Positions 2,694 to 52,016 of a stretch of 52,141 nucleotides of DNA are shown in pieces. Made by a program: the position numbers and the translations under genes. The notes beneath the pieces are model-generated. The model searched no databases. It was not told where the DNA came from and saw only the letters and a list, made by a program, of their open reading frames with translations. Every line of letters starts with the position of its first letter. Position 1 is the first letter of the stretch. Origin of the DNA: Candidatus Symbiothrix dinenymphae (GTDB lineage Bacteria > Bacteroidota > Bacteroidia > Bacteroidales > Azobacteroidaceae); assembly GCA_001417715.1 (NCBI GenBank), contig BBRT01000111.1, positions 1-52,141 of the forward strand. Reading direction: 5' to 3'.

Positions 2694-5600
2694 ATGAAAA
2701 AGAGAGTATTATCAATGGCATGTGTGGCAACAATGATGTTTGCCGGTGCCAACAGTGTGAACGCCCAATTTTCGGGCGGAGGAACGGGTACGGAGCAAAA
2801 TCCGTACAAAATTGTTACGGCAACCGATTTGAGCATCGTGCAGAATTTTGTGGGCGAAGAGTTTGCCGACAAGCACTTCCGCCTGATGAACAATGTGGAT
2901 TTGACCGCCTTCTTGAGCGGAGGCGGCAGTGGGTGGACACCCATAGGCGATGCCACAAACGCCTTTCACGGGCATATACACGGCGGCGGGTATGAAATTC
3001 AGGGCTTGTGGAGTAGCGGCAGCACCTACGCCGGCTTTGTGGGCTACCTGCGGGGCAGCATTGATAGCCTTGGTGTAAATGTGCCAAGCGGCAAAAGTGT
3101 AAGCGGCGGTAGTACAGGCGTTTTAGTTGGCTATAGTAATGGGGGTAGCATAACCAACTGCCACGCTACGGGTGATGTTTCGGGTAGCTCCTACGTTGGT
3201 GGATTGGTAGGATATGCTACGGGTGCTATTACCAATTGCTATGCTACAGGGACTGTGTCAGGGAGTTCTCAATACGCAGGTGGGCTGGTAGGATATGCTA
3301 CGGGTGCTATTACCAATTGCCACGCTACGAGCAATATATCAATAAGCACCTCTTCTACATCTTCTTATACATCTTCTTATACCGGTGGTTTGACTGGATA
3401 TGCTACGGGTGCTATTACCAACTGCTACGCTGTGGGTGATGTGTCGGTAACTATCTCCTCCTTCTCCACCTCCTTCTCCTCCTCCTCCTCCTACAGCTAC
3501 TCCTACGCCGGTGGGTTAGTAGGGTATGCTACGGGTGCTATTACCAATAGTCATGCTGTGGGCGATGTAATGGCTATTACCACTGCTGGTGACTCCTACT
3601 CCTCCTCCTTCTCCTCCTACTCCTATTCCGGTGGTTTGGTAGGGTATCAGAGTGGTGGGGCTATCACCCATAACTACGCTACGGGCAATGTAACAGCAAA
3701 TTCACAATACTACAGTGATACTTATCGCTACTGCATCCCCTCTTCCCACTCCGGCGGTTTGGTAGGGTATCAGACTGATGGTACTATCGCCAATAACTAC
3801 GCCACGGGCAATGTGACGGCAAATTCCACTGCCTACTCTTCAGGTTACACGCGCAATTCTTATGCAGGCGGTTTGGTAGGGTATCAGGCAAGTGGCACAA
3901 ATACCTTATCACAATGCTACGCTACCGGAACAGTTGCTGCAAGTAACAGCCCTGCTGGTGGCAACTCTGCAAGCCAAGGCGGTGTACTTGGCTATAGGGT
4001 ATCAAGCAGTAGCAATGTTTCCCGCTGCTACTACGACAAAGATATTACCGGCGCAGGCGTAAGCCCCATTGGCAATGAAAGCGGCACCGCCAACACGGCG
4101 GCCCAAGGAATGACTACCTCAAGTATGAAACTGTCAGCCCTGTTTATGACTTGGGATTTCAACTCTGTATGGGATATTGCCGAAGGCACCACCTATCCCT
4201 ATTTGCAGAGCAATGCGGAGGCAGGATTATCAGCCCTCAATATTATTCTGGGCAAACTACAAGTATGCGCCAACTCGCAAGAAGCGTACACCGCCCAATC
4301 GGGCAACACGGGTTATATCTGGACTGTCACCGGCGGCATCATCACTTTGGGGCAATATACCGACAAAATAACCGTGCGATGGGATGCCGATGCCACAGCG
4401 GGGACGTTGGGCGTGTCGCACAGCGGCGGAACAGTGAGCAAAGCGATAACCATCGCCACCGTGCAATCGTCCATCACCGGCAATATGAATCCTCTTGCGG
4501 GCGATACGCTGAGCTACATCACCGAAAGCGGCATGAACAATTACACATGGACAGCCACAGAAGGCAGCATTGTGTCGGGGCAAGGCACAAACGAAGTGCA
4601 GGTGAAATGGGATTGCACACCTTCGAGCAGTGCGCACATCACGGTCAATTACACCAACGCCAACGGTTGCACAGCTTCTGCACCCACCGACAGCGCGGTT
4701 GTAATTGGTGCCAATCCCATACCGACTATTTCAGGCGAAGTAAACCCCGTTTCAGGCTTTGTAGGTGCATATCAAACCGAAACGGGCAAAACGGATTATC
4801 AATGGACGGTCACCGGCGGGACAATTCTTTCGGGACAAGGCACCTATTATATCACGATACAATGGGGCGATACCACACCGGACGGTCTGCTTGGTGTCAG
4901 CTACGTCAATGCCAATGGCTGCACGGTGAGCACGCAGACCGATGGTAACAACACCGTCATAAATATTGACGTGCCTGTTAGCACCGATGCCTCGCTCAGC
5001 GACCTTGGCGTATCTGTAGGCGACCTTGATTTTGATGGCACAGCATCTCAATACAACGTTTATGTGGCAAATACAGTATCAAGTTTGGCAATTCAAGCCA
5101 CAGCCACCAAATCGACTTCTACAATCGCAGGAACAGGAGTAAAAACACTCAATGTAGGGCAAAACAATTTCGAGATAGTCATAACCGCAGAAGACGGCGT
5201 GACAACGCAAACCTACACGGTAATGGTATACAGAGCCGATGCCATTGTGCAAAACGACTTACTGGCGCAACTGCAAGCACACGTTGCAGCATTGCAAGCA
5301 GACAGCACAAGCAAACAAGGACAAATAACAACCTTGCAAACTGAAAAAGATGCATTGCAAACACATGTGAGCATTCTGCAAACAGACAGCACAAGCAAGC
5401 AAGGACAAATAACAACCTTGGAAAGTGAAAAAGATGCGCTGCAAACACATGTGAGCACCCTGCAAACAGACAGCACAAGCAAACAAGGGCAAATAACAAC
5501 CTTGCAAACTGAAACGACTACGTTGCAGACTGAAATTGCCGATTTGCAAGCTCAAATTGCAACTTTGCAGGCGCAGCTTGACGAATGTGGCGGAACCGAA

Positions 5601-40131: not shown

Positions 40132-41034
40132 CTATTTGTATAATTTCGTCATTGCCTTACCCTGTTTTGCCATTTCATTGCGAAAATCCGGCGGCGAGAG
40201 CACCTCAATTTCTGCACCGTGCGACAAAAGTTCCTGCTTGAAGTCGTAGGTGGGGCTGAGGAAATAGCGAAAAATGGCGTAATCGTCAAAAGTGCCCTCC
40301 TCTTCCTGCGAATGGTGCAGGGGGAGGGCGCGAAAATACTTGCTCTTCGTGCCAAAAGCCTTGATGCGCACCGTGCAGGGCGGGATATTTTCGTCCACGA
40401 TGATGCCAAAACTTTGCGCAAAATAACTTTCGGGGTCAAAATCTTTGGGGATTTCAAACTGAGTGTCGGTCGTGCGCAGGTTTTGGATGCGGTCTAAGCC
40501 GTAAATGCGCAGAGCATCGTAATAGGCGTTGTAAGCCAGCACATACCAGCGTTGCTTGAAAATTTTAACACAATAGGGGTCGATTTCAAAGGTGTAAGCC
40601 TCGTCGCGCCAAAAACTCTGATGGGTGATTTCAATCGTCAAACCGTCGCGCATCGCCTCAATAATCGGCGTGAGAAACCGCTGTCCCGACGGGATTTCCT
40701 CAAACAGGATGCGCCGTTTCAACTTGTGGCTTTCGTTGATGAGGTTGTTCACGGCAAACGTGTTGAGCAGCCACGAGCGCACGCCGCCTTTCTCCATATC
40801 GTCCTGATTGGCAATGAAATAGACATAGTTGTTGCGCCGGTCGCAGTCGATATTGATGTCGAACAGCTCCTCAATCGCCTGCCGGTGGTTGTGAAACGTG
40901 CGCAGAGGCATCTCCTCGCCGCCGCTCATGTCGTTGCGCACCCACTTCCGGTTGATGTCTGCAAGCGTAATTTTCCCCGCGCGGTAGATAGTATCCACCA
41001 GCCAAACGTAGCGATTGTAGAGGTCTTTTGCCAT
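40132..41034 (-). CDS. WYL-domain transcriptional regulator
   Basis: The 300-residue protein has an N-terminal winged helix (YNRYVWLVDTIYRAGKITLADIN, LRTFHNHRQAIEEL) that should bind DNA. A WYL domain follows (~120-210; LTIEITHQSFW, FEIDPYCVKIFKQRWYVLAYN, LRIYGLDRIQNL), thought to sense nucleic-acid or nucleotide ligands. A C-terminal WCX-like part ends the protein. It lies 43 bases downstream of rtcB in the same direction but has its own -7 box, so rtcB is a plausible target. WYL regulators often control defence or DNA/RNA-damage genes; that role is inferred from context. Confidence 0.9.
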   Translation of the reverse strand: MAKDLYNRYVWLVDTIYRAGKITLADINRKWVRNDMSGGEEMPLRTFHNHRQAIEELFDINIDCDRRNNYVYFIANQDDMEKGGVRSWLLNTFAVNNLINESHKLKRRILFEEIPSGQRFLTPIIEAMRDGLTIEITHQSFWRDEAYTFEIDPYCVKIFKQRWYVLAYNAYYDALRIYGLDRIQNLRTTDTQFEIPKDFDPESYFAQSFGIIVDENIPPCTVRIKAFGTKSKYFRALPLHHSQEEEGTFDDYAIFRYFLSPTYDFKQELLSHGAEIEVLSPPDFRNEMAKQGKAMTKLYK

Positions 41035-41077: not shown

Positions 41078-42250
41078 TCACCCTTTCACCACAGCCAGCG
41101 GGCTCAACTCCACTTTAATCTGCACTAAATCTGCCTGAAACGCCATCACTTGCTCGATGTCTTTGTAGGCAGACGCGGCTTCTTCGAGGTCGGATTTGCC
41201 TCGGATAGAGTGGATGATGCCTTGCTCGTCTAATTTGCGCATTTCGGCTTCCAAATCCAACTTGCGAATGGCGGCTGAGCGGCTCATCAGGCGACCTGCG
41301 CCGTGCGAGCAACTCATAAAACTGTCGGGGTTGCCCAAACCCTCCACGATGTAGGATTTTGTGCCTTGCGAGCCGGGTATGATGCCGATTTCGCCGAGTT
41401 GGGCGGAGGTTGCTCCCTTGCGATGCACAATTACTTTACGGTCGAAATGCTTTTCCCACGCGGCATAATTGTGTGCAATATTGATGATTGGTTCATATTC
41501 TACGCCCGACAGAACGGCTGAAACCACGTTTTGTATGCGCTCCATCATCAGTTTGCGGTTGGCAAGCGCAAACGCGGTGCAATACTGCATCTCCTTGTAA
41601 TAGGCGTGCGCCTCGTCGGTCACAAATGGCAGAAACGCCAAATCGGCTTTCGGGTCGATGGTCGAAAAATACATTGCGTTCAGTTTTTTTGCCACCTTAT
41701 TGTAATGTTCAGCCACCTGCAAGCCCAAATTGCGACTGCCGGAGTGAATCATCAGCCACAAATAACCGTCGTTGCAGCGTTGCAATTCAATGAAATGATT
41801 GCCGCCGCCGAGCGTGCCAATCTGCTTGAGAGCCGACCCATATTGCCGCTTCACAATCAGCAATTCGTCTATGTTAAAGTTCTGTGGCATAAGGCTTTCG
41901 TCCTGCCGTTCTTTATGGTGGTCAAAACCGAGCGGAACCACTCCGCGAATGCCGCGCATAATCGCAGTCAAATGTTCACGTTGCAGTGTTTCCACGCGGA
42001 TATTGGTTTTGAGGGCACACATACCACAGCCAATGTCCACCCCCACAGCATTGGGTATAATCACGTTGTCGGCTGCCAGCACCCCACCAATCGGCATCCC
42101 ATAGCCTTGATGCGTATCGGGCATCAAGCAGATATGGCTCACGGCAAACGGCAAATTAGCCAAATGGCGCGCCTGTTCCAAAGAGCCCTGCTCCGGCTCG
42201 TCCAACCACATTTTGATTGGGAGATTCTCTGTTGCTATTACTTTTTGCAT
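41078..42250 (-). CDS. rtcB: RNA-splicing ligase RtcB
   Basis: The 390-residue enzyme joins RNA 2',3'-cyclic phosphate or 3'-phosphate ends to 5'-OH ends with GTP and Mn2+, repairing cleaved tRNA or rRNA. Active-site residues are visible: D72 and C75 (GVDIGCGMCA), H152 (GTLGGGNHFIE), H169 (HSGSRN), H260 (INIAHNYA), H276 (VHRKGATSA) and the guanylated H316 (SCSHGAGRLMSR). The length fits the shorter bacterial RtcB group. Expression probably depends on the palindrome-linked promoter at 42273-42312, which it shares with two genes of the downstream accessory cluster. The WYL regulator follows. Confidence 0.95.
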   Translation of the reverse strand: MQKVIATENLPIKMWLDEPEQGSLEQARHLANLPFAVSHICLMPDTHQGYGMPIGGVLAADNVIIPNAVGVDIGCGMCALKTNIRVETLQREHLTAIMRGIRGVVPLGFDHHKERQDESLMPQNFNIDELLIVKRQYGSALKQIGTLGGGNHFIELQRCNDGYLWLMIHSGSRNLGLQVAEHYNKVAKKLNAMYFSTIDPKADLAFLPFVTDEAHAYYKEMQYCTAFALANRKLMMERIQNVVSAVLSGVEYEPIINIAHNYAAWEKHFDRKVIVHRKGATSAQLGEIGIIPGSQGTKSYIVEGLGNPDSFMSCSHGAGRLMSRSAAIRKLDLEAEMRKLDEQGIIHSIRGKSDLEEAASAYKDIEQVMAFQADLVQIKVELSPLAVVKG

Positions 42251-42272: not shown

Positions 42273-42312
42273 CAAAGGTACGATTAACTTGTGCAAAACT
42301 GCGGCATAAGTT
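42273..42312 (-). promoter_or_regulatory. Palindrome-linked promoter A (rtcB)
   Basis: On the minus strand an inverted repeat AACTTATGCcgcagttttGC...AAGTT (42286-42312) is followed at once by ATCG and the -7 box TACCTTTG (42280-42273), 23 bases before the rtcB start. About 40 bases match sites B (47445-47484) and C (49840-49878) almost exactly. The palindrome lies over the expected -33 region, so it is probably an operator. Confidence 0.72.
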
Positions 42313-42319
42313 GAAAAAA

Positions 42320-42384
42320 AATACTTTTGGATTATTTCACTGTAAATGTCTTTCAACACTTGCACAAATTTGTGTTTTGTGCTG
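42320..42384 (-). pseudogene. Relic of an abiEii-type toxin gene (both ends fused, middle deleted)
   Basis: Bases 42320-42336 (TACTTTTGGATTATT) match the 3' end of the abiEii gene at 49888-49905. Bases 42337-42380 (TCACTGTAAATGTCTTTC...) match its 5' part at 50531-50576. About 625 bases between are missing. The relic therefore keeps only the last few codons and an early segment, and cannot make a toxin. Confidence 0.7.
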
Positions 42385-44654: not shown

Positions 44655-44771
44655 TTACTTTTTCTTAGCGTCTGTTTCACATTTTTTGCCACAGTAGGAC
44701 AGTGACAATGTAGCTCCGGATTTTGATGATTCATACTCATCACCACACCATTTACATACTTTTTTTGCCAT
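44655..44771 (-). CDS. Small zinc-ribbon-like protein (38 residues)
   Basis: The minus strand encodes a 38-residue protein, MAKKVCKWCGDEYESS...SYCGKKCETDAKKK. Two cysteine pairs (C6-xx-C9 and C27-xxx-C31) can bind one zinc ion, and the ends are Lys-rich, suggesting nucleic-acid or protein binding. A strong terminator starts 20 bases after the stop, and a near-consensus -7 box (CATCTTTG, minus strand, ~44882-44889) lies ~110 bases upstream. Its small size and compact Cys pattern make it easy to miss. Function unknown. Confidence 0.75.
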   Translation of the reverse strand: MAKKVCKWCGDEYESSKSGATLSLSYCGKKCETDAKKK

Positions 44772-45139: not shown

Positions 45140-45865
45140 TTAGAATAATTCTACAAAATGCTGCTGCCTTGTTGTTACTTCGCCCCAAAGAAAATTGATG
45201 CGGACGATGTCTGAAAGGCTGAAAAGCGAATGGTCGACCAATTCGTGTATGCCGTAGCCGATGTAAAAATCGGCTAATTCGCCGTTGCCGGGCATATCAC
45301 ATTCATTCCAATTCAGTTCTTTGTTAAAATATAGACTATGCTCTCGCAAATCATCGTTGGCTGCATGAAACTGCAACATGTATTCGTTCCACATAAGATG
45401 CAGCAGACCGTCTATTCCTTCAGTCGCTTCTTGCATCTCTCCCGTTTCTTCATCTTTGACATAAATGAAGGGATGAATATTGCAGTCTATCTCATAATCG
45501 TGAAGAAAAGCATTGTTGCCTGCTTTTTTCTGATTCAAATACACGGTTTCTTGCTCGGCTTCTTGACGTAACTTTTCCAGACAATCCATGAGTTGCTCAT
45601 TGAGGCGGAGGATTTTTGTAGTATTCTCCGGCGTAAACACAAATTCTGCGTTTAACTTTTGTTTTCTGCATTGAAGCATCAACTTCAACAATTCATGTTC
45701 AGGCGTGTTTTCTTTTGAATATGCCCGCTCCAAAACCATGGCTGTTTCTTCCAGTTCTTTTGCGGAATAGCCCCACAAAACATCATGAAGTTCTGTGCAA
45801 TATTTTTTCTCCCAATCCGTTCCCATTAGTTCAATGAGTTGCTGCACTTTTTCTTTTGTATTCAT
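45140..45865 (-). CDS. Uncharacterised protein, paralogue 1 of a tandem pair (241 residues)
   Basis: The protein is not recognised but is clearly homologous to its upstream neighbour over the full length: both start MNTKEK(V/T)QQLIELM, share AEFV(F/Y)TP and AFLHDY, and end FSLSDI(V/I)RIN(F/Y)L(W/R)GE. It is mainly helical, cytoplasmic and acidic, without signal or membrane segments. The pair probably arose by gene duplication and has since diverged strongly. It lies 17 bases downstream of paralogue 2, with a poly-T/A run just before the start. A role in the accessory cluster is likely but unknown. Confidence 0.72.
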   Translation of the reverse strand: MNTKEKVQQLIELMGTDWEKKYCTELHDVLWGYSAKELEETAMVLERAYSKENTPEHELLKLMLQCRKQKLNAEFVFTPENTTKILRLNEQLMDCLEKLRQEAEQETVYLNQKKAGNNAFLHDYEIDCNIHPFIYVKDEETGEMQEATEGIDGLLHLMWNEYMLQFHAANDDLREHSLYFNKELNWNECDMPGNGELADFYIGYGIHELVDHSLFSLSDIVRINFLWGEVTTRQQHFVELF

Positions 45866-45882: not shown

Positions 45883-46587
45883 TTATACTTCTACAACGTG
45901 CCGATGAATCGTTTTTATTTCGCCCCGAAGATAATTAATGCGGATGATGTCTGAAAGGCTAAAAAACGAATAAGCCCACAAAGCATACATGCTGTAACTA
46001 ATACTGAAGTCAGCTAATTCAACTTGACTTGGCATGTTCAGCCTCCAGCTCCATTCATCCCAATCCGATACAAACGGATGCCATTCATCGTCAGTTTTTC
46101 CGTCAAAGGATACCATACCTTTAGTCAAAATCTCATCTACGCCATCATAAGCATCATATAGATACCCCAATTCGGCATCTTTTGGGAAAATGTAGGGTGT
46201 CACCTTATACTCCATGTCGTAATCGTGCAGAAAAGCATCGTCATTTGCTTTTCTCGCTTTCAGAATCGCAAGTTCTTGTTGCGTTTCTTGAGATAGTTTT
46301 TCCAAACAATTCATAATCCGCTCATTAATCTGACTTATCTTGTCAATAGCAGTTGGCGTGTACACAAATTCGGCATCCAATTTCCATTTTCGATGTGAGA
46401 GTATCAATTCCAACAACTTGTATTCGGGTGCGTGTTTTTCTGAGCATGCCGCACAATCCAAAAACATTGCCATTTTTTCCAGTTCGTCCACAGAAGAAGT
46501 CCCCAAAACTACCCGCAGTTCATCGTCACTCTCTTTACAATCCTTTTTCATTAGTTCAATAAGTTGTTGCGTTTTTTCTTTTGTATT
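45883..46587 (-). CDS. Uncharacterised protein, paralogue 2 of a tandem pair (234 residues)
   Basis: This is homologous to the gene at 45140, with KLDAEFVYTPTAIDKISQIN, KANDDAFLHDYDMEYKVTPYIF and SFFSLSDIIRINYLRGE as the most conserved parts. The start at 46587 (MNTKEKTQQLIEL) is chosen to match the paralogue; ATGs at 46593 and 46617 are alternatives. Between residues ~150 and 190 it carries an acidic/aromatic section (DEWHPFVSDWDEWSWRLN) that differs from paralogue 1, which may be the specificity part. It follows the WG-repeat gene by 61 bases in the same direction. No known family recognised. Confidence 0.7.
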   Translation of the reverse strand, partial: NTKEKTQQLIELMKKDCKESDDELRVVLGTSSVDELEKMAMFLDCAACSEKHAPEYKLLELILSHRKWKLDAEFVYTPTAIDKISQINERIMNCLEKLSQETQQELAILKARKANDDAFLHDYDMEYKVTPYIFPKDAELGYLYDAYDGVDEILTKGMVSFDGKTDDEWHPFVSDWDEWSWRLNMPSQVELADFSISYSMYALWAYSFFSLSDIIRINYLRGEIKTIHRHVVEV

Positions 46588-46648
46588 CATTTTCATTGTT
46601 TTATTACTGTTTCCCATTTATTGTCTTTTCACCCATGCCAAGCCATTT

Positions 46649-47419
46649 TCAAAACGGCGAGCATTGGTCATAGATGGGCGGTATAATCAGATTGTTGTTA
46701 CGGTCAATATAGCCGTATTTTTTATTCAATCGAATCATGAAAAAATCATCGTTCGGACGGATACTGTCGTATCCAAATGGAATCACAACTTTATTTTGTT
46801 TATCTATAACGCCCGCTTTGCCGTTTTTGAAGACAACAGCGATGTCGTCCTCAAAAGCAACTGTCAAATCGTATTCGGCAGGGATGATTTTTTCGCCTTT
46901 TTTATTCATAAATCCATACCGACCATTCTCCCGATAACTTGCCAGTCCACATTGAAAATACTGCGGAAATTCAATATCGCGCCAATCAGGGTCATCCACA
47001 TCTGTGTGAAAATAAGGAATCACCAAATTATCGTTTCTGTCAATATAACCGGCGCGAGTGATTGTTCCGTCCGTTCCTGTGCAAACAACATAAGCCAATC
47101 CTTCCGAAAATGACTGGGCGATGTCGTATTTTATCGGAACAACAACCTCACCCGCCTGATTGATGTAGCCCCATTTGCCGTTTAATTCCACTTCGGCAAG
47201 ACCCTCCGAAAATTTCTTGGAGGCATCATCACACTCCGGAGGGGATATTTCATTCCCGTTAGGGTCAATCCAGCCCTGTTTATCGCCGTTTACAACAAAA
47301 AACCGATTGTCTTCAAAAAAGGTTATCTTATCGTATAGACAAGGAACAACTTGGTCGCCATTTCTGTCCACCAATCCCCATTTGCCGTAGGCAAAAACTT
47401 TGTATCGTGCGTTGTTCAT
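46649..47419 (-). CDS. WG-repeat protein (256 residues)
   Basis: The protein consists of WG beta-repeats, visible as KWGLVDRNGDQVVPCLYD, QGWIDPNGNEISPP, KWGYINQAGEVVVPIKYD, RYGFMNKKGEKIIPAEYD, AGVIDKQNKVVIPFGYD and KYGYIDRNNNLIIPPIYD. WG repeats probably form a beta-solenoid or propeller used for binding; no catalytic part is present. There is no signal peptide, so it is likely cytoplasmic. Its start overlaps the exonuclease stop by 4 bases (ATGA), yet a promoter with the shared palindrome lies inside the exonuclease 3' end, so it can be expressed both with and apart from that gene. Confidence 0.88.
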   Translation of the reverse strand: MNNARYKVFAYGKWGLVDRNGDQVVPCLYDKITFFEDNRFFVVNGDKQGWIDPNGNEISPPECDDASKKFSEGLAEVELNGKWGYINQAGEVVVPIKYDIAQSFSEGLAYVVCTGTDGTITRAGYIDRNDNLVIPYFHTDVDDPDWRDIEFPQYFQCGLASYRENGRYGFMNKKGEKIIPAEYDLTVAFEDDIAVVFKNGKAGVIDKQNKVVIPFGYDSIRPNDDFFMIRLNKKYGYIDRNNNLIIPPIYDQCSPF

Positions 47420-48030
47420 ATTTTTATGTTTTTAAATTTTTCTGCAAAGGTACGATAAACTTGTGCCAAACTGCGGCACAAGTTGAAAACTTTCTCAACT
47501 AATCTGCGCGGCGGCGGCTTTTCCCCCTCCGACTGCCACAATTTCAGTGCAATCACCGCGCAAGCCTCAGCATCCGCCAAAGCATGGTGATGATGCGTCA
47601 AATCGAAGCCACAATGTGCTGCAACGGTGTGCAACTGATGATTGGGCAGCAAATCCTTGTGAATTTGTCGCGAGGCACGGCAGGTGCAATGGAACGTGTA
47701 GTTGGGATATTCCATGCCATAGACGGCGTGCACGGCTCGCAGACAGCCCTCGTCAAACGGGCTGTTGTGCGCCACCAGCGGCAGGTCGGCAATCTTTGGG
47801 GCAATCTGTGCCCACACATCGGGAAATGCTTCGGCGTGCGCGGTGTCGGCAAAACCTATCCCGTGAATTTCGGTCGTGAACCGATGCAAATAATAATTGG
47901 GCGTGGGGCGAACGAGGTGGTAAATCCGGTCCACGATTTGTCCGTTACGAACAATCACTACGCCAATGCTGCACACACTTGACCGCGAATAGTTGGCGGT
48001 TTCAAAATCAATTGCTGCGAAATTTTTCAT
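47416..48030 (-). CDS. DEDDh 3'-5' exonuclease (DnaQ-like)
   Basis: The 204-residue protein has all DEDDh exonuclease motifs: D8 and E10 (AAIDFETANYS), D93 (LVAHNSPFDEGCL), and H148 with D153 (HHHALADAEA). It should remove nucleotides from 3' ends of DNA or RNA. The exonuclease core ends near residue 170. The last 28 residues (LVEKVFNLCRSLAQVYRT and on) are encoded by the palindrome-promoter block B (47445-47484) plus leader sequence of the next gene, so this C terminus looks accidental. It follows the metallophosphoesterase by 5 bases and overlaps the WG gene by 4. Confidence 0.9.
   Translation of the reverse strand: MKNFAAIDFETANYSRSSVCSIGVVIVRNGQIVDRIYHLVRPTPNYYLHRFTTEIHGIGFADTAHAEAFPDVWAQIAPKIADLPLVAHNSPFDEGCLRAVHAVYGMEYPNYTFHCTCRASRQIHKDLLPNHQLHTVAAHCGFDLTHHHHALADAEACAVIALKLWQSEGEKPPPRRLVEKVFNLCRSLAQVYRTFAEKFKNIKI
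47445..47484 (-). promoter_or_regulatory. Palindrome-linked promoter B (WG-repeat gene), inside the exonuclease 3' end
   Basis: Perfect 10-bp arms (AACTTGTGCC at 47458-47467 and its complement at 47475-47484) flank a 7-base centre. On the minus strand they are followed by TATCG and the -7 box TACCTTTG (47452-47445), 25 bases before the WG start. Confidence 0.75.
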
Positions 48031-48035
48031 ATTTT

Positions 48036-48674
48036 TTATTTTTTTAAGTATTTAAAAACTACCGGCTCATTGCGCATCACATCCAGGTCATCCAGCACAG
48101 AGCCATTCACAAACGTTGTTTCACCCGATTGAACCGTGCCGTAGGCTTCATGAATATGTCCGAATAAGTGGTAGCGAGGCTTTATCTGATTCACTGCTTT
48201 TAATAAATCTTCGCAACCGGAGTGCCCCCCGCTTATCGTCCGGTCTAATATGCCGAAAGGAGGCGTATGAGTGATTAAAACGTCCACATCTTTGTCGATT
48301 AGTTGCCAATGTTTCCTAATATCTTCACCTCTGTTGCGATTGAAAGCCCAGCCGAAAAACCACGGGCTGACCGGCGACCCCCAGAATTTGATGCCCTCAA
48401 TTTCCACGCCGGAATCGCAAAGATAACAGGCATTTTGGGGCAACATTCGTTGAACGCGCCGAACGGTTTCGTCCTCAAGCCAAAAATCATGATTTCCGGC
48501 AATGAAAATCTTATGCTTGTAATCCAAGCCGCCAAACCACTGCATAAAATCGTCCACTTCGTAGTCGGCACCCGAGCGGGAAACATCTCCGGCATGAATG
48601 AGCATATCTGCCGGAGGAAGATTTTTCAAACGGTGATGCTTGCCGTGCGTGTCTGATAGAAAAAGTATGTTCAT
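48036..48674 (-). CDS. Calcineurin-like metallophosphoesterase
   Basis: The 212-residue protein has the metallophosphoesterase motifs in order: D8 and H10 (LFLSDTHGKHH), GD (MLIHAGDVS), GNHD (IFIAGNHDFW), LITHTPPFG, and the final GHIH (HLFGHIHEAYG). It is a di-metal phosphatase or phosphodiesterase; substrate unknown, and cyclic or linear nucleotides and nucleic acids are all possible. The start at 48674 (MNILFLSD) is chosen because the fold begins there; the longer frame overlaps the ATPase end. It lies 8 bases after the ATPase and 5 before the exonuclease, so these three plus the WG gene form a likely operon. Confidence 0.9.
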   Translation of the reverse strand: MNILFLSDTHGKHHRLKNLPPADMLIHAGDVSRSGADYEVDDFMQWFGGLDYKHKIFIAGNHDFWLEDETVRRVQRMLPQNACYLCDSGVEIEGIKFWGSPVSPWFFGWAFNRNRGEDIRKHWQLIDKDVDVLITHTPPFGILDRTISGGHSGCEDLLKAVNQIKPRYHLFGHIHEAYGTVQSGETTFVNGSVLDDLDVMRNEPVVFKYLKK

Positions 48675-48682
48675 ATTTTTTT

Positions 48683-49810
48683 TCACGCCGATGCCCTTTC
48701 CTGCACTGCACACGATTGAAACCCAATCGTCCGCCTTGCAATCGGCTGAAAATCAGCCTCATCCTGATTGTAAATTGCCGTAAGTGTCATCGGCTTGTCA
48801 ATTTTTGACAAAAAGCCCAATTTGTCGGAAAGAGCTTGCGCCTTCGGTTGCGCCAACTCCAAAAATTCATATTTGGCAATCAGGCGACCTTTGCGCAGCA
48901 GGGCATTGTCTATCCGCGACAGGTCGGTGTTGAACGAACAAATAATTTGGATGTTGAGGCAGTCGGATAGCAAGCCATCAGCCAAATTCAGCAATGCCGA
49001 CACAGATGAGCCGCCGGTTTTGTTCCTGTCCATGATGATGTTTTCCGCATCTTCAATCACGAAAATGGAGTTGGGATGGTCTATCAGCACCGACATCAAG
49101 CCCGGGTCGGTGATTGCCGCCGCCATATTGGGGGGCAAAAAGATGATGTCTTTCTTCGTTTTGGAAATCAGATAGCGAATGTAGGAAGTCTTGCCTGTGC
49201 CCGGTTTGCCGTGCAGCAGCACCAATCCCTTATCGTTTTTCTTCGACAAGCGTTTGAGGATGGTTTCGTGGATTGGCAACAAATCATCGTTGTAATTGTC
49301 CTCAATTGCCAATTTGGGTTTGTTAATTTCCATTTCTTTTGTATCCAAACCGGACCTTTCATTGACCAGCAAGTTGATTTCGGGCTTGCGTCGGGTAGCC
49401 CGTTCGCGCTTCGGAAATTTCTTAATTGCCTGTATCAATGTCTCCACTTTCGCCACATCGGTTTTGCGAAACAAGAATGTCACCTGCGAGTCCTCAATGT
49501 TAAAATAAACCATCAAATCATCATACAACAGATAATACAAGTCGTCATATTCGGCGGCTTTATTCTTTTTCCACTGCCGCTTGATATAATGAAAATTGGT
49601 GATTTCATGTCTTACCGATTCTACAAACCAGTCATTGGCTTTCTTACAATCAATGTCCTTTGCCCGAGTCCAATTTGGAATGGTATTGAAATACATCATA
49701 AATAAAGCAGGCGGATTAAAAAAATCCTCCACCCTGTCATACACATCTGACCAACTTATAGCATTAGTAACTTCAAATTTTTGCGCTTGCAATTTTGCTA
49801 AATCTTTCAT
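48683..49810 (-). CDS. AAA+ ATPase with unrecognised N-terminal domain (375 residues)
   Basis: Residues ~1-170 are not recognised (many aromatic residues: YFNTIPNWTRAKDID, YDDLYYLLYDDLMVYF). Residues ~190-350 are an AAA core related to BCS1-like ATPases: Walker A HGKPGTGKTSY (G201-T208), Walker B IFVIEDAENI (~249-258), sensor 1 IICSFNTD and an arginine-finger candidate in IDNALLRKGRLIAKYEF. It likely remodels or senses a protein or nucleic acid. It is the first gene of the ATPase-phosphoesterase-exonuclease-WG set and is driven by palindrome-linked promoter C. A 5'-truncated second copy lies at 51456-52016. Confidence 0.87.
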   Translation of the reverse strand: MKDLAKLQAQKFEVTNAISWSDVYDRVEDFFNPPALFMMYFNTIPNWTRAKDIDCKKANDWFVESVRHEITNFHYIKRQWKKNKAAEYDDLYYLLYDDLMVYFNIEDSQVTFLFRKTDVAKVETLIQAIKKFPKRERATRRKPEINLLVNERSGLDTKEMEINKPKLAIEDNYNDDLLPIHETILKRLSKKNDKGLVLLHGKPGTGKTSYIRYLISKTKKDIIFLPPNMAAAITDPGLMSVLIDHPNSIFVIEDAENIIMDRNKTGGSSVSALLNLADGLLSDCLNIQIICSFNTDLSRIDNALLRKGRLIAKYEFLELAQPKAQALSDKLGFLSKIDKPMTLTAIYNQDEADFQPIARRTIGFQSCAVQERASA

Positions 49811-49839: not shown

Positions 49840-49878
49840 CAAAGGTACGATGCACTTGTGCCAAACTGCGGCATAAGC
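49840..49878 (-). promoter_or_regulatory. Palindrome-linked promoter C (AAA ATPase)
   Basis: On the minus strand GCTTATGCCgcagtttGGCA continues to CAAGTGC and is followed by ATCG and the -7 box TACCTTTG (49847-49840), 29 bases before the ATPase start. It begins 11 bases after the abiEii stop and matches sites A and B over ~40 bases. Confidence 0.72.
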
Positions 49879-49889
49879 TCATAAAAAAT

Positions 49890-50591
49890 TTACTTTTGGA
49901 TTATTGAAAATTCTTTGTAAAACTTCAACAATGTGATGGTTTCGGTGCGGAGTTTATTCCTGATAAATGCCTTTATATCGGGGTTCACCAACTCGCCTAA
50001 GCCATCTAACAGGCTCTTGTTTGGCAGATTTTCCATTGCATCAATGCACTCTTGCAGATAGTTCGGTAGTGATTTAACCATTCGTTGTTCGACAATTTCC
50101 TGATTGATTGGTGTTTGACGGCTCATAAAAAACCAACAGTCGAAAATATCCCTGTTTATAACGCTACTTCTGTCCAACAAGGCACAAAGTTTATTTGAAA
50201 ACATATTGGATAAAGTCATTACTTTTATGTTGATACCCAGCAAGTTGCAAATATCGTACTCGTTGTTGCCCGGACGGTTGGAAATCTCAATTTTCAATTT
50301 TCGTTCTGCAATGCCGTAATCAAGGACAATAATGCTTCCGTAAAATTTCTGCGCCTCATCGTGAATTTTACCATATTTGAGCACAATTTTGCGTATTTTC
50401 TGATAAACCGCATCGCTTGTGTCGGGAGTGAGCAAATTGAAGTCCAAATCGACCGAAAAGCGCGGCAATTCGTAGAAAAACATCAGCGCAGTTCCGCCTT
50501 TGAAACACAAGCAATTAGCCAATTCGGCATCACTGTAAATGTCTTTCAGCACTTGCACCATATAAAATTTGTGTTTAGTTATATCTAACAT
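49890..50591 (-). CDS. abiEii: AbiEii/AbiGii-type nucleotidyltransferase toxin
   Basis: The 233-residue protein has the nucleotidyltransferase signature of AbiEii toxins: K31-GGTAL (CLCFKGGTALMFFYELPR) and SVDLDF with D48 and D50, followed by KLKIEISNRPG and a helical C terminus. In type IV abortive-infection systems the toxin blocks growth by adding nucleotides to tRNA or a similar target. Its start overlaps the upstream antitoxin gene by 7 bases. The 3' end and part of the 5' end recur as a relic near rtcB (42320-42384). It looks intact. Confidence 0.88.
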   Translation of the reverse strand: MLDITKHKFYMVQVLKDIYSDAELANCLCFKGGTALMFFYELPRFSVDLDFNLLTPDTSDAVYQKIRKIVLKYGKIHDEAQKFYGSIIVLDYGIAERKLKIEISNRPGNNEYDICNLLGINIKVMTLSNMFSNKLCALLDRSSVINRDIFDCWFFMSRQTPINQEIVEQRMVKSLPNYLQECIDAMENLPNKSLLDGLGELVNPDIKAFIRNKLRTETITLLKFYKEFSIIQK

Positions 50592-51166
50592 ATTGAAAAT
50601 AAATTAGTTACTGTTTTTATTAGCGTTTGAGAACCATAAATCGGCAGGAGTTTTGCCACCGTTTTTTTGTTCAAAATATGCAGATTGTCGAAATAAAAAT
50701 GTTTGTTTAGATAGAGCATATCCAAAAAAGCACGTTCCGGTGTGGCAATGTTTATATTGTTTTTGTTCAGTATAATACCTGCCGTATTGGTCAAAATTTC
50801 ACCTTTTATTTGACGGTATCGAAACGTGAGATTGTCAATTTCGGTTTCGCGCGAGAGGTACGACACATTAGTTATTGCGCTGTCGTACTGAAAGATAACA
50901 CCTGCCCGCTGCAAAACATATTCAAGCGAAATGTAAGTTGGCGGGTAGAGCAAACAAGCCATTTCTTCGGGTTTATATCCCTCTTTGGCGTAAAAACCTT
51001 TGCGCGGATTGAGCAACTTGCCGGTTTGCACATAGTAAAACAGCTTCTTGTGCAAAGCAGAAGTTTTTTCATAGCCAAGCAGCAACGCTATATCGTTGAT
51101 TCTGAATACTGTCCGCGAATCGCGATAAATTTCAAAAACGATGTCTTTCTCTTTTTCGTAAACCAT
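50585..51166 (-). CDS. abiEi: AbiEi-type antitoxin / transcriptional regulator
   Basis: The 193-residue protein starts with a winged helix (VFRINDIALLLGYEKTSALHKKLFYYVQTG) and continues into an AbiEi-like C-terminal part (EEMACLLYPPTYISLEYVLQ, IATPERAFLDMLYLNK). In AbiE systems the antitoxin represses its own promoter and counteracts the nucleotidyltransferase without binding it. It overlaps the toxin start by 7 bases. A -7 box is at 51196-51203. The assignment fits both sequence and gene order. Confidence 0.85.
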   Translation of the reverse strand: MVYEKEKDIVFEIYRDSRTVFRINDIALLLGYEKTSALHKKLFYYVQTGKLLNPRKGFYAKEGYKPEEMACLLYPPTYISLEYVLQRAGVIFQYDSAITNVSYLSRETEIDNLTFRYRQIKGEILTNTAGIILNKNNINIATPERAFLDMLYLNKHFYFDNLHILNKKTVAKLLPIYGSQTLIKTVTNLFSIC

Positions 51167-51455: not shown

Positions 51456-52016
51456 TCACGCCGATGTCCTCTCCTGCGCCGCACACGATTGAAACCCAAT
51501 CGTCCGCCTTGCAATCGGCTGAAAATCAGCCTCGTCCTGATTATAAATTGCCGTAAGCGTCATCGGCTTGTCAATCTTGGACGAGAAGCCTAATTTGTCG
51601 GAAAGTGCCTGCGCCTTCGGTTGCGCCAACTCCAAAAATTCATATTTCGCAATCAGGCGACCTTTGCGTAGCAGGGCATTGTCTATCCGCGACAAGTCGG
51701 TGTTGAACGAACAAATAATCTGGATGTTGAGGCAGTCGGAGAGCAAGCCGTCAGCCAAATTCAGGAGTGCCGACACAGACGAGCCGCCTGTTTTGTTTCT
51801 GTCCATGATGATGTTTTCCGCATCTTCAATCACGAAAATAGAGTTGGGATGGTCTATCAGCACCGACATCAAGCCCGGGTCGGTGATTGCCGCCGCCATG
51901 TTGGGGGGCAAAAAGATGATGTCCTTCTTCGTTTTGGAAATCAGATAGCGAATGTAGGAAGTCTTGCCCGTGCCCGGTTTGCCGTGCAGCAGTACCAAGC
52001 CCTTATCGTTTTTCTC
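51456..52016 (-). pseudogene. 5'-truncated second copy of the AAA+ ATPase
   Basis: The sequence matches residues ~191-375 of the ATPase at 48683 with only three amino-acid differences among the last ~180 residues, while DNA differences are more numerous and mostly silent. Homology stops abruptly near 52016 (before the codons for KNDKG). An in-frame TGA lies a few codons further upstream and there is no ATG, so the N-terminal half and a proper start are missing. Walker A, Walker B and sensor 1 are still intact. Homology also continues a few bases past the stop into the start of the phosphoesterase gene (GAACAT), showing that this is a duplicated DNA block. Confidence 0.85.

Follow-up and report, generated by a model that had tools for sequence, protein, structure and literature searches.

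Three promoters on the minus strand of the window (by which we mean the whole 52,141-nt stretch analysed here, from Candidatus Symbiothrix dinenymphae) carry closely similar blocks in which a palindrome stands at a fixed distance from a -7 box. One lies before an RNA ligase gene (rtcB), one before a WG-repeat gene and one before an AAA ATPase gene. This raises the question of which protein reads the block, and whether it ties RNA repair to the neighbouring ATPase-phosphoesterase-exonuclease-WG set. The window is one whole contig (C111) of a 3.52-Mb draft genome in 346 contigs (G000), whose source organism presumably inhabits the termite gut. The features that concern us are as follows.

40132..41034, minus strand: WYL+WCX regulator, 300 aa (PF13280, PF25583), 43 nt downstream of rtcB; probable reader of the palindrome
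41078..42250, minus strand: RtcB RNA ligase (Pfam PF01139)
42273..42311, minus strand: putative operator-promoter block before rtcB(-WYL); palindrome 42287-42311, -7 box TACCTTTG at 42273-42280
42317..42365, minus strand: AbiEii-like gene remnant upstream of the rtcB block; 29 nt of it (42337-42365) are 97% identical to 50530-50558
46649..47419, minus strand: WG-repeat protein (Pfam PF14903)
47416..48030, minus strand: DEDDh-type 3'-5' exonuclease (Pfam PF00929; PADLOC PDC-S48 and DEDDh)
47445..47483, minus strand: putative operator-promoter block before the WG-repeat gene; palindrome 47459-47483, box 47445-47452
48036..48713, minus strand: calcineurin-like phosphoesterase (Pfam PF00149; PADLOC PDC-S10)
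48683..49810, minus strand: AAA ATPase, 375 aa (Pfam PF00004), first of the AAA-phosphoesterase-exonuclease-WG run
49840..49878, minus strand: putative operator-promoter block before the AAA ATPase gene; palindrome 49854-49878, box 49840-49847

Three palindrome-promoter blocks in the window

A preliminary description of this DNA had claimed three shared minus-strand blocks and had held that the other boxes of the window lack the palindrome; both claims are borne out. In all three blocks exactly 6 nt separate the end of the 25-bp palindrome from TACCTTTG, and the combined pattern of palindrome and box, matched three times in the window, would be expected 0.01 times by chance and reached three copies in none of 100 shuffles. 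The 9-N7-9 palindrome is perfect only in the WG block, the rtcB and AAA copies having two mismatches each, and the ATG follows the box at 22 nt (rtcB), 25 nt (WG) and 29 nt (AAA). Of 16 TACCTTTG boxes in the window, three are preceded by a palindrome that matches at 13-14 of the 14 arm positions; none of the other 13 scores above 6/14. The WG block lies within the exonuclease ORF, at its 3' end, and the terminal residues of that ORF, NLCRSLAQVYRTFAE..., are the translated palindrome and box; the exonucleases of G010, a relative of the same genus, and of locus L092 lack this palindrome-encoded C-terminal extension. At another locus, in a relative (L118), a single ORF fuses the exonuclease with WG repeats, starting about 1806 nt downstream of the site, with no promoter block between the two parts.

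Several further observations concern the surrounding genes. Two related genes stand in tandem after the WG gene (45140-45865 and 45883-46617; 71% identity over 151 nt). A cysteine-rich 38-aa peptide (MAKKVCKWCGDEYESSK...) is encoded at 44655-44771 without a palindrome, and in G010 a similar peptide with a similar leader lies behind a palindrome-promoter (L021, about 4884-5040). An AbiEi/AbiEii toxin-antitoxin pair (49890-51166) lies directly upstream of the AAA block, and a similar pair belongs to the run behind the palindrome at L092. PADLOC places the exonuclease and the phosphoesterase in candidate defence groups (PDC-S48 and PDC-S10), so that they may also act against foreign DNA.

Copies in the source genome

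The preliminary description had proposed scanning the whole genome with the pattern, and when this was done all four strong copies with a box were found to precede gene starts in the correct orientation. Besides the three in the window there is one further real copy, at C133:668-706, before the remnant of another AAA gene copy and beside transposase-like sequence. Two weaker palindrome matches (C1:2171 and C122:11961, 3 mismatches) are absent from the scans that require a box. A relaxed scan of the same genome with the box gave 17 more weak places (one with 2 and 16 with 3 mismatches) against 5 for the reversed-pattern control; ORFs of at least 100 aa contain 15 of these places, the two outside being L209 and L217. 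Within the limits of these own-genome scans, the regulon of the window genome seems to consist of rtcB-WYL, AAA-phosphoesterase-exonuclease and WG.

The copies within this genome probably arose by duplication of the block, since identity between the WG and rtcB blocks is 93% across 55 nt, bases outside the arms included, and an AbiEii remnant upstream of the rtcB block is paired with an intact AbiEii upstream of the AAA block. The AAA ATPase gene itself occurs in at least three copies or fragments (48683-49810, 51456-51998 at the contig end, and the C133 remnant, L025, near the transposase-like sequence). A mobile promoter cassette, the alternative offered in the preliminary description, is thus probably right in part for the local copies, as block duplication, but does not account for other genomes, where spacers and flanks have diverged.

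A Bacteroidales-wide motif with fixed geometry

The motif is a Bacteroidales-wide signal and is not peculiar to the window genome. A search of 84,980 species with TTRTGCC-N7-GGCAYAA-N8-TAnnTTTG returned 79 sites on 75 contigs where about 2-3 were expected by chance, and we therefore reject a chance origin. Seventy-three of the 75 contigs are titled Bacteroidota, the other two being Brachymonas and Acetatifactor MAGs. With the 9-base arms and the box, 295 genomes of the order yielded, beyond the window's genome, six weak matches (3 mismatches, six genomes; control 1), which shows the complete 39-base form to be rare and the common consensus to be shorter.

The distance between palindrome and box is constant. 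In the window, C133 and G010, all eight palindromes with a gene-sense TAnnTTTG have the box 6 nt past the 25-mer, which equals 8 nt past the 7-base arm, and two of the eight also have TACTTTTG at 10 or 12 nt on the opposite strand. The initial palindrome matches L007, L008, L020 and L023, with no box within 40 nt, were treated as background, and the other matches outside G000 and G010 (L009-L011, L013-L017) were left out of the assessment. To remove the bias of a box-requiring search, the arms alone were searched in 15 motif genomes, and TAnnTTTG stood at exactly +8 on one side in 27 of 47 palindromes, 20 of these 27 having served to choose the genomes. Among the 27 sites independent of that choice, the box is at +8 in 7 of the 9 that lie between genes and in none of the 18 that lie within them (Fisher 4e-5).

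Base composition was counted on 75 non-redundant sites (99 before removal of sites at least 80% identical), with the box columns fixed by selection and at least 13 of 14 arm positions required. The arms read TTRTGCC and GGCAYAA, A/T-rich bases lie upstream, and the spacer ends on its box side in a T-T-T run (60, 76 and 80% T). The paired R/Y arm positions, with 49 G-C, 10 G-T, 11 A-C and 5 A-T combinations, vary independently (p=0.29), as would be the case for a protein operator. Bacteroides promoters are described with a -7 element TAnnTTTG and a -33 element TTTG (PMC7366714). At the spacing of the -33 element (gap 19-21), TTTG occurs in 0 of 75 sites. By comparison with this published promoter, the centre of the operator falls at roughly the place expected of the -33 element.

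Genes behind the sites

Genes within 900 nt behind the 79 sites were assigned by similarity, as automatic choice of the first ORF gave spurious ORFs at several of them. A small acidic ORF is the most frequent (31 sites, against 1 in a reverse-strand control), followed by recA and WYL (6 each), AAA and a repeat protein (3 each) and an AddB-like gene (2); SbcD, DnaE, exonuclease, GyrB-like and AbiEi occur once each, and 23 sites have no assignment. A UvrD/AddA-like helicase gene lies behind a further site. The sequence upstream of recA could be used in 24 motif genomes; 7 of them have a site of 13-14/14 there, and five of these seven had been picked for their recA site. In other Bacteroidales, judging from these assignments, the site may mark a DNA-damage response comprising recA, AddA/AddB-like, SbcD, DnaE, recG-WYL and small proteins. 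A search of the draft genome of the window found no recA at E<=1e-40, although that query recovers the gene from 25 of 27 other Bacteroidales genomes; its absence reflects either a gap in the draft or true loss.

The small acidic ORF encodes a family of about 41 aa (MKNTEYNL..L.S.ISSE.S..AL.DMI.DMGLE; L079, L125, L129, L106 and 27 others), and is often convergent to a large Clp-type ATPase gene (checked at L129, by reading at others). Two kinds of small protein with a hydrophobic N-terminus, MWLAVI... and MGTLIYSIISVVVYAIILL..., also lie behind the site (L071, L119, L258; L251, L255), and these we take to be reminiscent of SOS-induced division inhibitors. The acidic proteins of about 41 residues are perhaps cell-cycle inhibitors.

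A WYL regulator as the candidate reader

The preliminary description had named the WYL regulator next to rtcB as one candidate for a common regulator, and it emerges as the best one by its autoregulatory sites, its operon links with recG and exonuclease genes, and its co-occurrence with the motif. The protein combines a WYL domain (PF13280, E 2.6e-14) with a WCX domain (PF25583, E 4e-09), as in class A (PMC6789036); its N-terminus has no Pfam HTH match, and the model there opens with three helices and a strand pair. Of 27 motif genomes, 24 have an orthologue (best E at or below 1.8e-54), as against 27 of 117 relatives that are not family-matched (E<=1e-30), giving a Fisher value of 2e-10, or 4e-9 minus three genomes that had been found via a WYL promoter. 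The three motif genomes with no WYL match (G341, G350, G351) may reflect chance sites, MAG gaps or another regulator. G010 has one WYL-domain protein and four box-bearing sites, one of them before the WYL gene itself, and the window genome has two such proteins.

WYL lies directly behind the palindrome at L039, L142, L148 and other loci, behind rtcB in the window, where it also has its own -7 box with no palindrome, and behind a phosphoesterase gene at L038 (site 12/14). It follows recG in 11 genomes (RecG confirmed), and its other neighbours are exonuclease, phosphoesterase and rtcB genes; a DEDDh-type exonuclease gene follows it in several relatives. Upstream of 59 WYL genes, 25 of which have TAnnTTTG within 160 nt (L065 was omitted as it has no upstream sequence), a best 7-7-7 inverted repeat of 6-7 pairs is seen for eight genes. 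All eight repeats are at offset 8, with score ties broken towards that offset; L039, L142 and L148 come from motif-picked loci, and L143 and L152 from genomes picked by another site. At L057 a distant WYL protein has a different putative recognition helix (RTFQRDL vs RTFHNHR) and a different palindrome (CCACGACATGTTTTGTCGTGG), the pattern expected if protein and site have co-evolved. In the recG-WYL genomes the protein is only about 33-39% identical to the window query, and a palindrome is present in 6 of 10 upstream stretches (L172-L181) at a lowered threshold (11-13/14) and in none of the other four. In five of these (L173, L174, L175, L177, L181) the -7 box runs into the left arm, which suggests autorepression there. 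We take a homodimer of the WYL regulator at 40132-41034 to be the likeliest reader of the palindrome.

Proposed mechanism and alternatives

We propose, with a probability of about 0.7, that the block is the operator-promoter of a homodimeric WYL regulator that acts as a DriD-like activator of a damage regulon. The operator TTRTGCC-N7-GGCAYAA would be fused to a sigma-ABfr-type promoter with the -7 box TAnnTTTG, the operator lying upstream in place of a -33 element, with about 22 nt between the two centres. A damage signal, single-stranded nucleic acid held in the WYL domain, would lead the dimer to bind DNA, and the simplest mechanism would then be activation, the bound dimer holding RNA polymerase at a promoter that has no -33 box. 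We infer direct binding, the ligand, and activation rather than repression; activation is favoured because the layout is as in DriD and PafBC and these two are the best Foldseek matches of the WYL model (pLDDT 75.7), ahead of CapW and BrxR. With a whole-chain TM of about 0.3, the match is at the level of domains only. The part of the preliminary interpretation that saw a common regulator at these promoters is supported, and its cassette idea survives for the local copies.

There are other possible explanations for a conserved palindrome at these promoters. The main rival keeps the same regulon and makes the WYL protein a BrxR/CapW-like repressor that covers the -33/-7 region and is released on binding nucleic acid. 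The fixed geometry and missing -33 element favour activation, but the recG-WYL palindromes of five genomes overlap the -7 box, a roadblock position that favours repression at those promoters, and BrxR and CapW are among the fold matches. A repressor would, however, have no need of a +8 spacing locked at unrelated promoters, and neither the complete lack of TTTG at -33 spacing nor the asymmetric spacer, with its TTT towards the -7 box, fits it well; the fold search also ranks DriD and PafBC first. We consider a repressor unlikely on balance, while taking it more seriously than any other alternative. Somewhat less probable is a different reader of the operator, an S24/LexA-like repressor or some further factor, for which the WYL gene would be just one target. 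The gene set is SOS-like, 15 of the 21 motif genomes examined have an S24 match above the cut-off, and three of 27 motif genomes have no WYL match at all; yet the palindrome (at least 12/14) is found at 0 of 26 S24 loci within the fetched stretch, and on this ground LexA/S24 was rejected as the reader. Moreover, four of the 21 genomes have no S24 at E<=0.001, among them G339 with its recA site and G342 with its sbcD/addA site (these MAGs may have gaps), and WYL genes have palindromes of the same geometry whose sequence differs when the putative recognition helix does.

A mobile or duplicating promoter cassette with no shared regulation could account for the near-identity of the WG and rtcB blocks, the AbiEii remnant and the several AAA copies, and is the likely origin of the local copies. 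As a full explanation it is very improbable, as the 75 non-redundant sites have the arms, the spacer T-run and the box in common but not the flanks, and the gene set recurs in many genomes. The viral_contigs collection has 0 exact matches, which also led us to reject a viral origin. That the palindrome is an RNA hairpin, a terminator or a 5' structure seems hardly credible: a stem could form on either strand, but the coding strand has no U-tract after it, the palindrome sits upstream of the -7 box, and the paired R/Y positions do not covary. The activator reading remains the one that we prefer.

Relation to known systems

DriD of Caulobacter is a homodimeric WYL activator whose sites overlap a poor -35 at one fixed distance from the -10 (PMC12340889). 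The resemblance, as far as that account goes, extends to the WYL-WCX architecture, with a putative wHTH in the window protein, the pseudo-palindrome of about 20 bp, a site upstream of its own gene, and targets among repair and small-protein genes. Here too a palindrome lies over the -33 region at a fixed distance from the core box, except at recG-WYL, where it overlaps the -7 box, and sites stand upstream of the candidate regulator's own gene or operon (rtcB-WYL in the window; WYL at 6 of 79 sites). The damage response under DriD is described as SOS-independent. The regulon here has recA, AddAB-like, recG and rtcB genes and sigma-ABfr-type -7 promoters; the two proteins share 15-19% identity in structural alignments, and activation by ssDNA, known for DriD, is assumed here by analogy (PMC12340889).

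PafBC of mycobacteria is likewise a WYL+WCX activator of the DNA-damage response, ssDNA-activated and working by sigma adaptation; it recognises a motif near -26 and takes up a position between sigma domain 4 and the promoter DNA (PMC11804915, PMC6789036). PafBC is a heterodimer with a non-palindromic motif according to these sources, in contrast to the single protein and palindrome here. BrxR and CapW are WYL regulators tied to phage-defence systems (PMC9122601), whereas the assigned sites here lie mainly before repair genes and the small ORF. The S24 (non-canonical LexA) repressors of Bacteroidetes govern an SOS-like gene set with recG and a COG0847 exonuclease among its targets, and their groups are reported absent from the order Bacteroidales (PMC8565304). 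Their published motifs are GGA-N5-TCC and CTAA-N5-TTAG; the element conserved at the present promoters is TTRTGCC-N7-GGCAYAA. A link between RNA repair and damage has a precedent in the Salmonella RNA-repair operon, for which a link with the SOS response is published (PMC9879122).

Implications

Both known groups of Bacteroidetes SOS regulators are reported absent from Bacteroidales (PMC8565304). Judged by titles and abstract openings, and with most subscription journals outside the scope, none of the papers retrieved by full-text search for WYL together with Bacteroidetes, Bacteroides or Bacteroidales describes the system proposed here. The present analysis puts forward a candidate regulator by name, together with its precise operator, a constant promoter geometry and a list of targets, and the Bacteroidales-wide reach of the site, next to recA, addB-like and other repair genes, goes beyond what a single window can reveal. 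In its widest form, to which we give even odds, the proposal is that the Bacteroidales damage response is run by a WYL activator that senses single-stranded nucleic acid and acts on TTRTGCC-N7-GGCAYAA at +8 above the -7 box, with new acidic damage proteins of about 41 residues in its core output and RtcB added in termite symbionts. If true, this would extend the WYL ssDNA-type damage control of DriD and PafBC to another phylum with RNA repair tied in, and would expose a family of tiny damage-linked proteins. The palindrome switch may thus be the missing damage alarm of a whole order.
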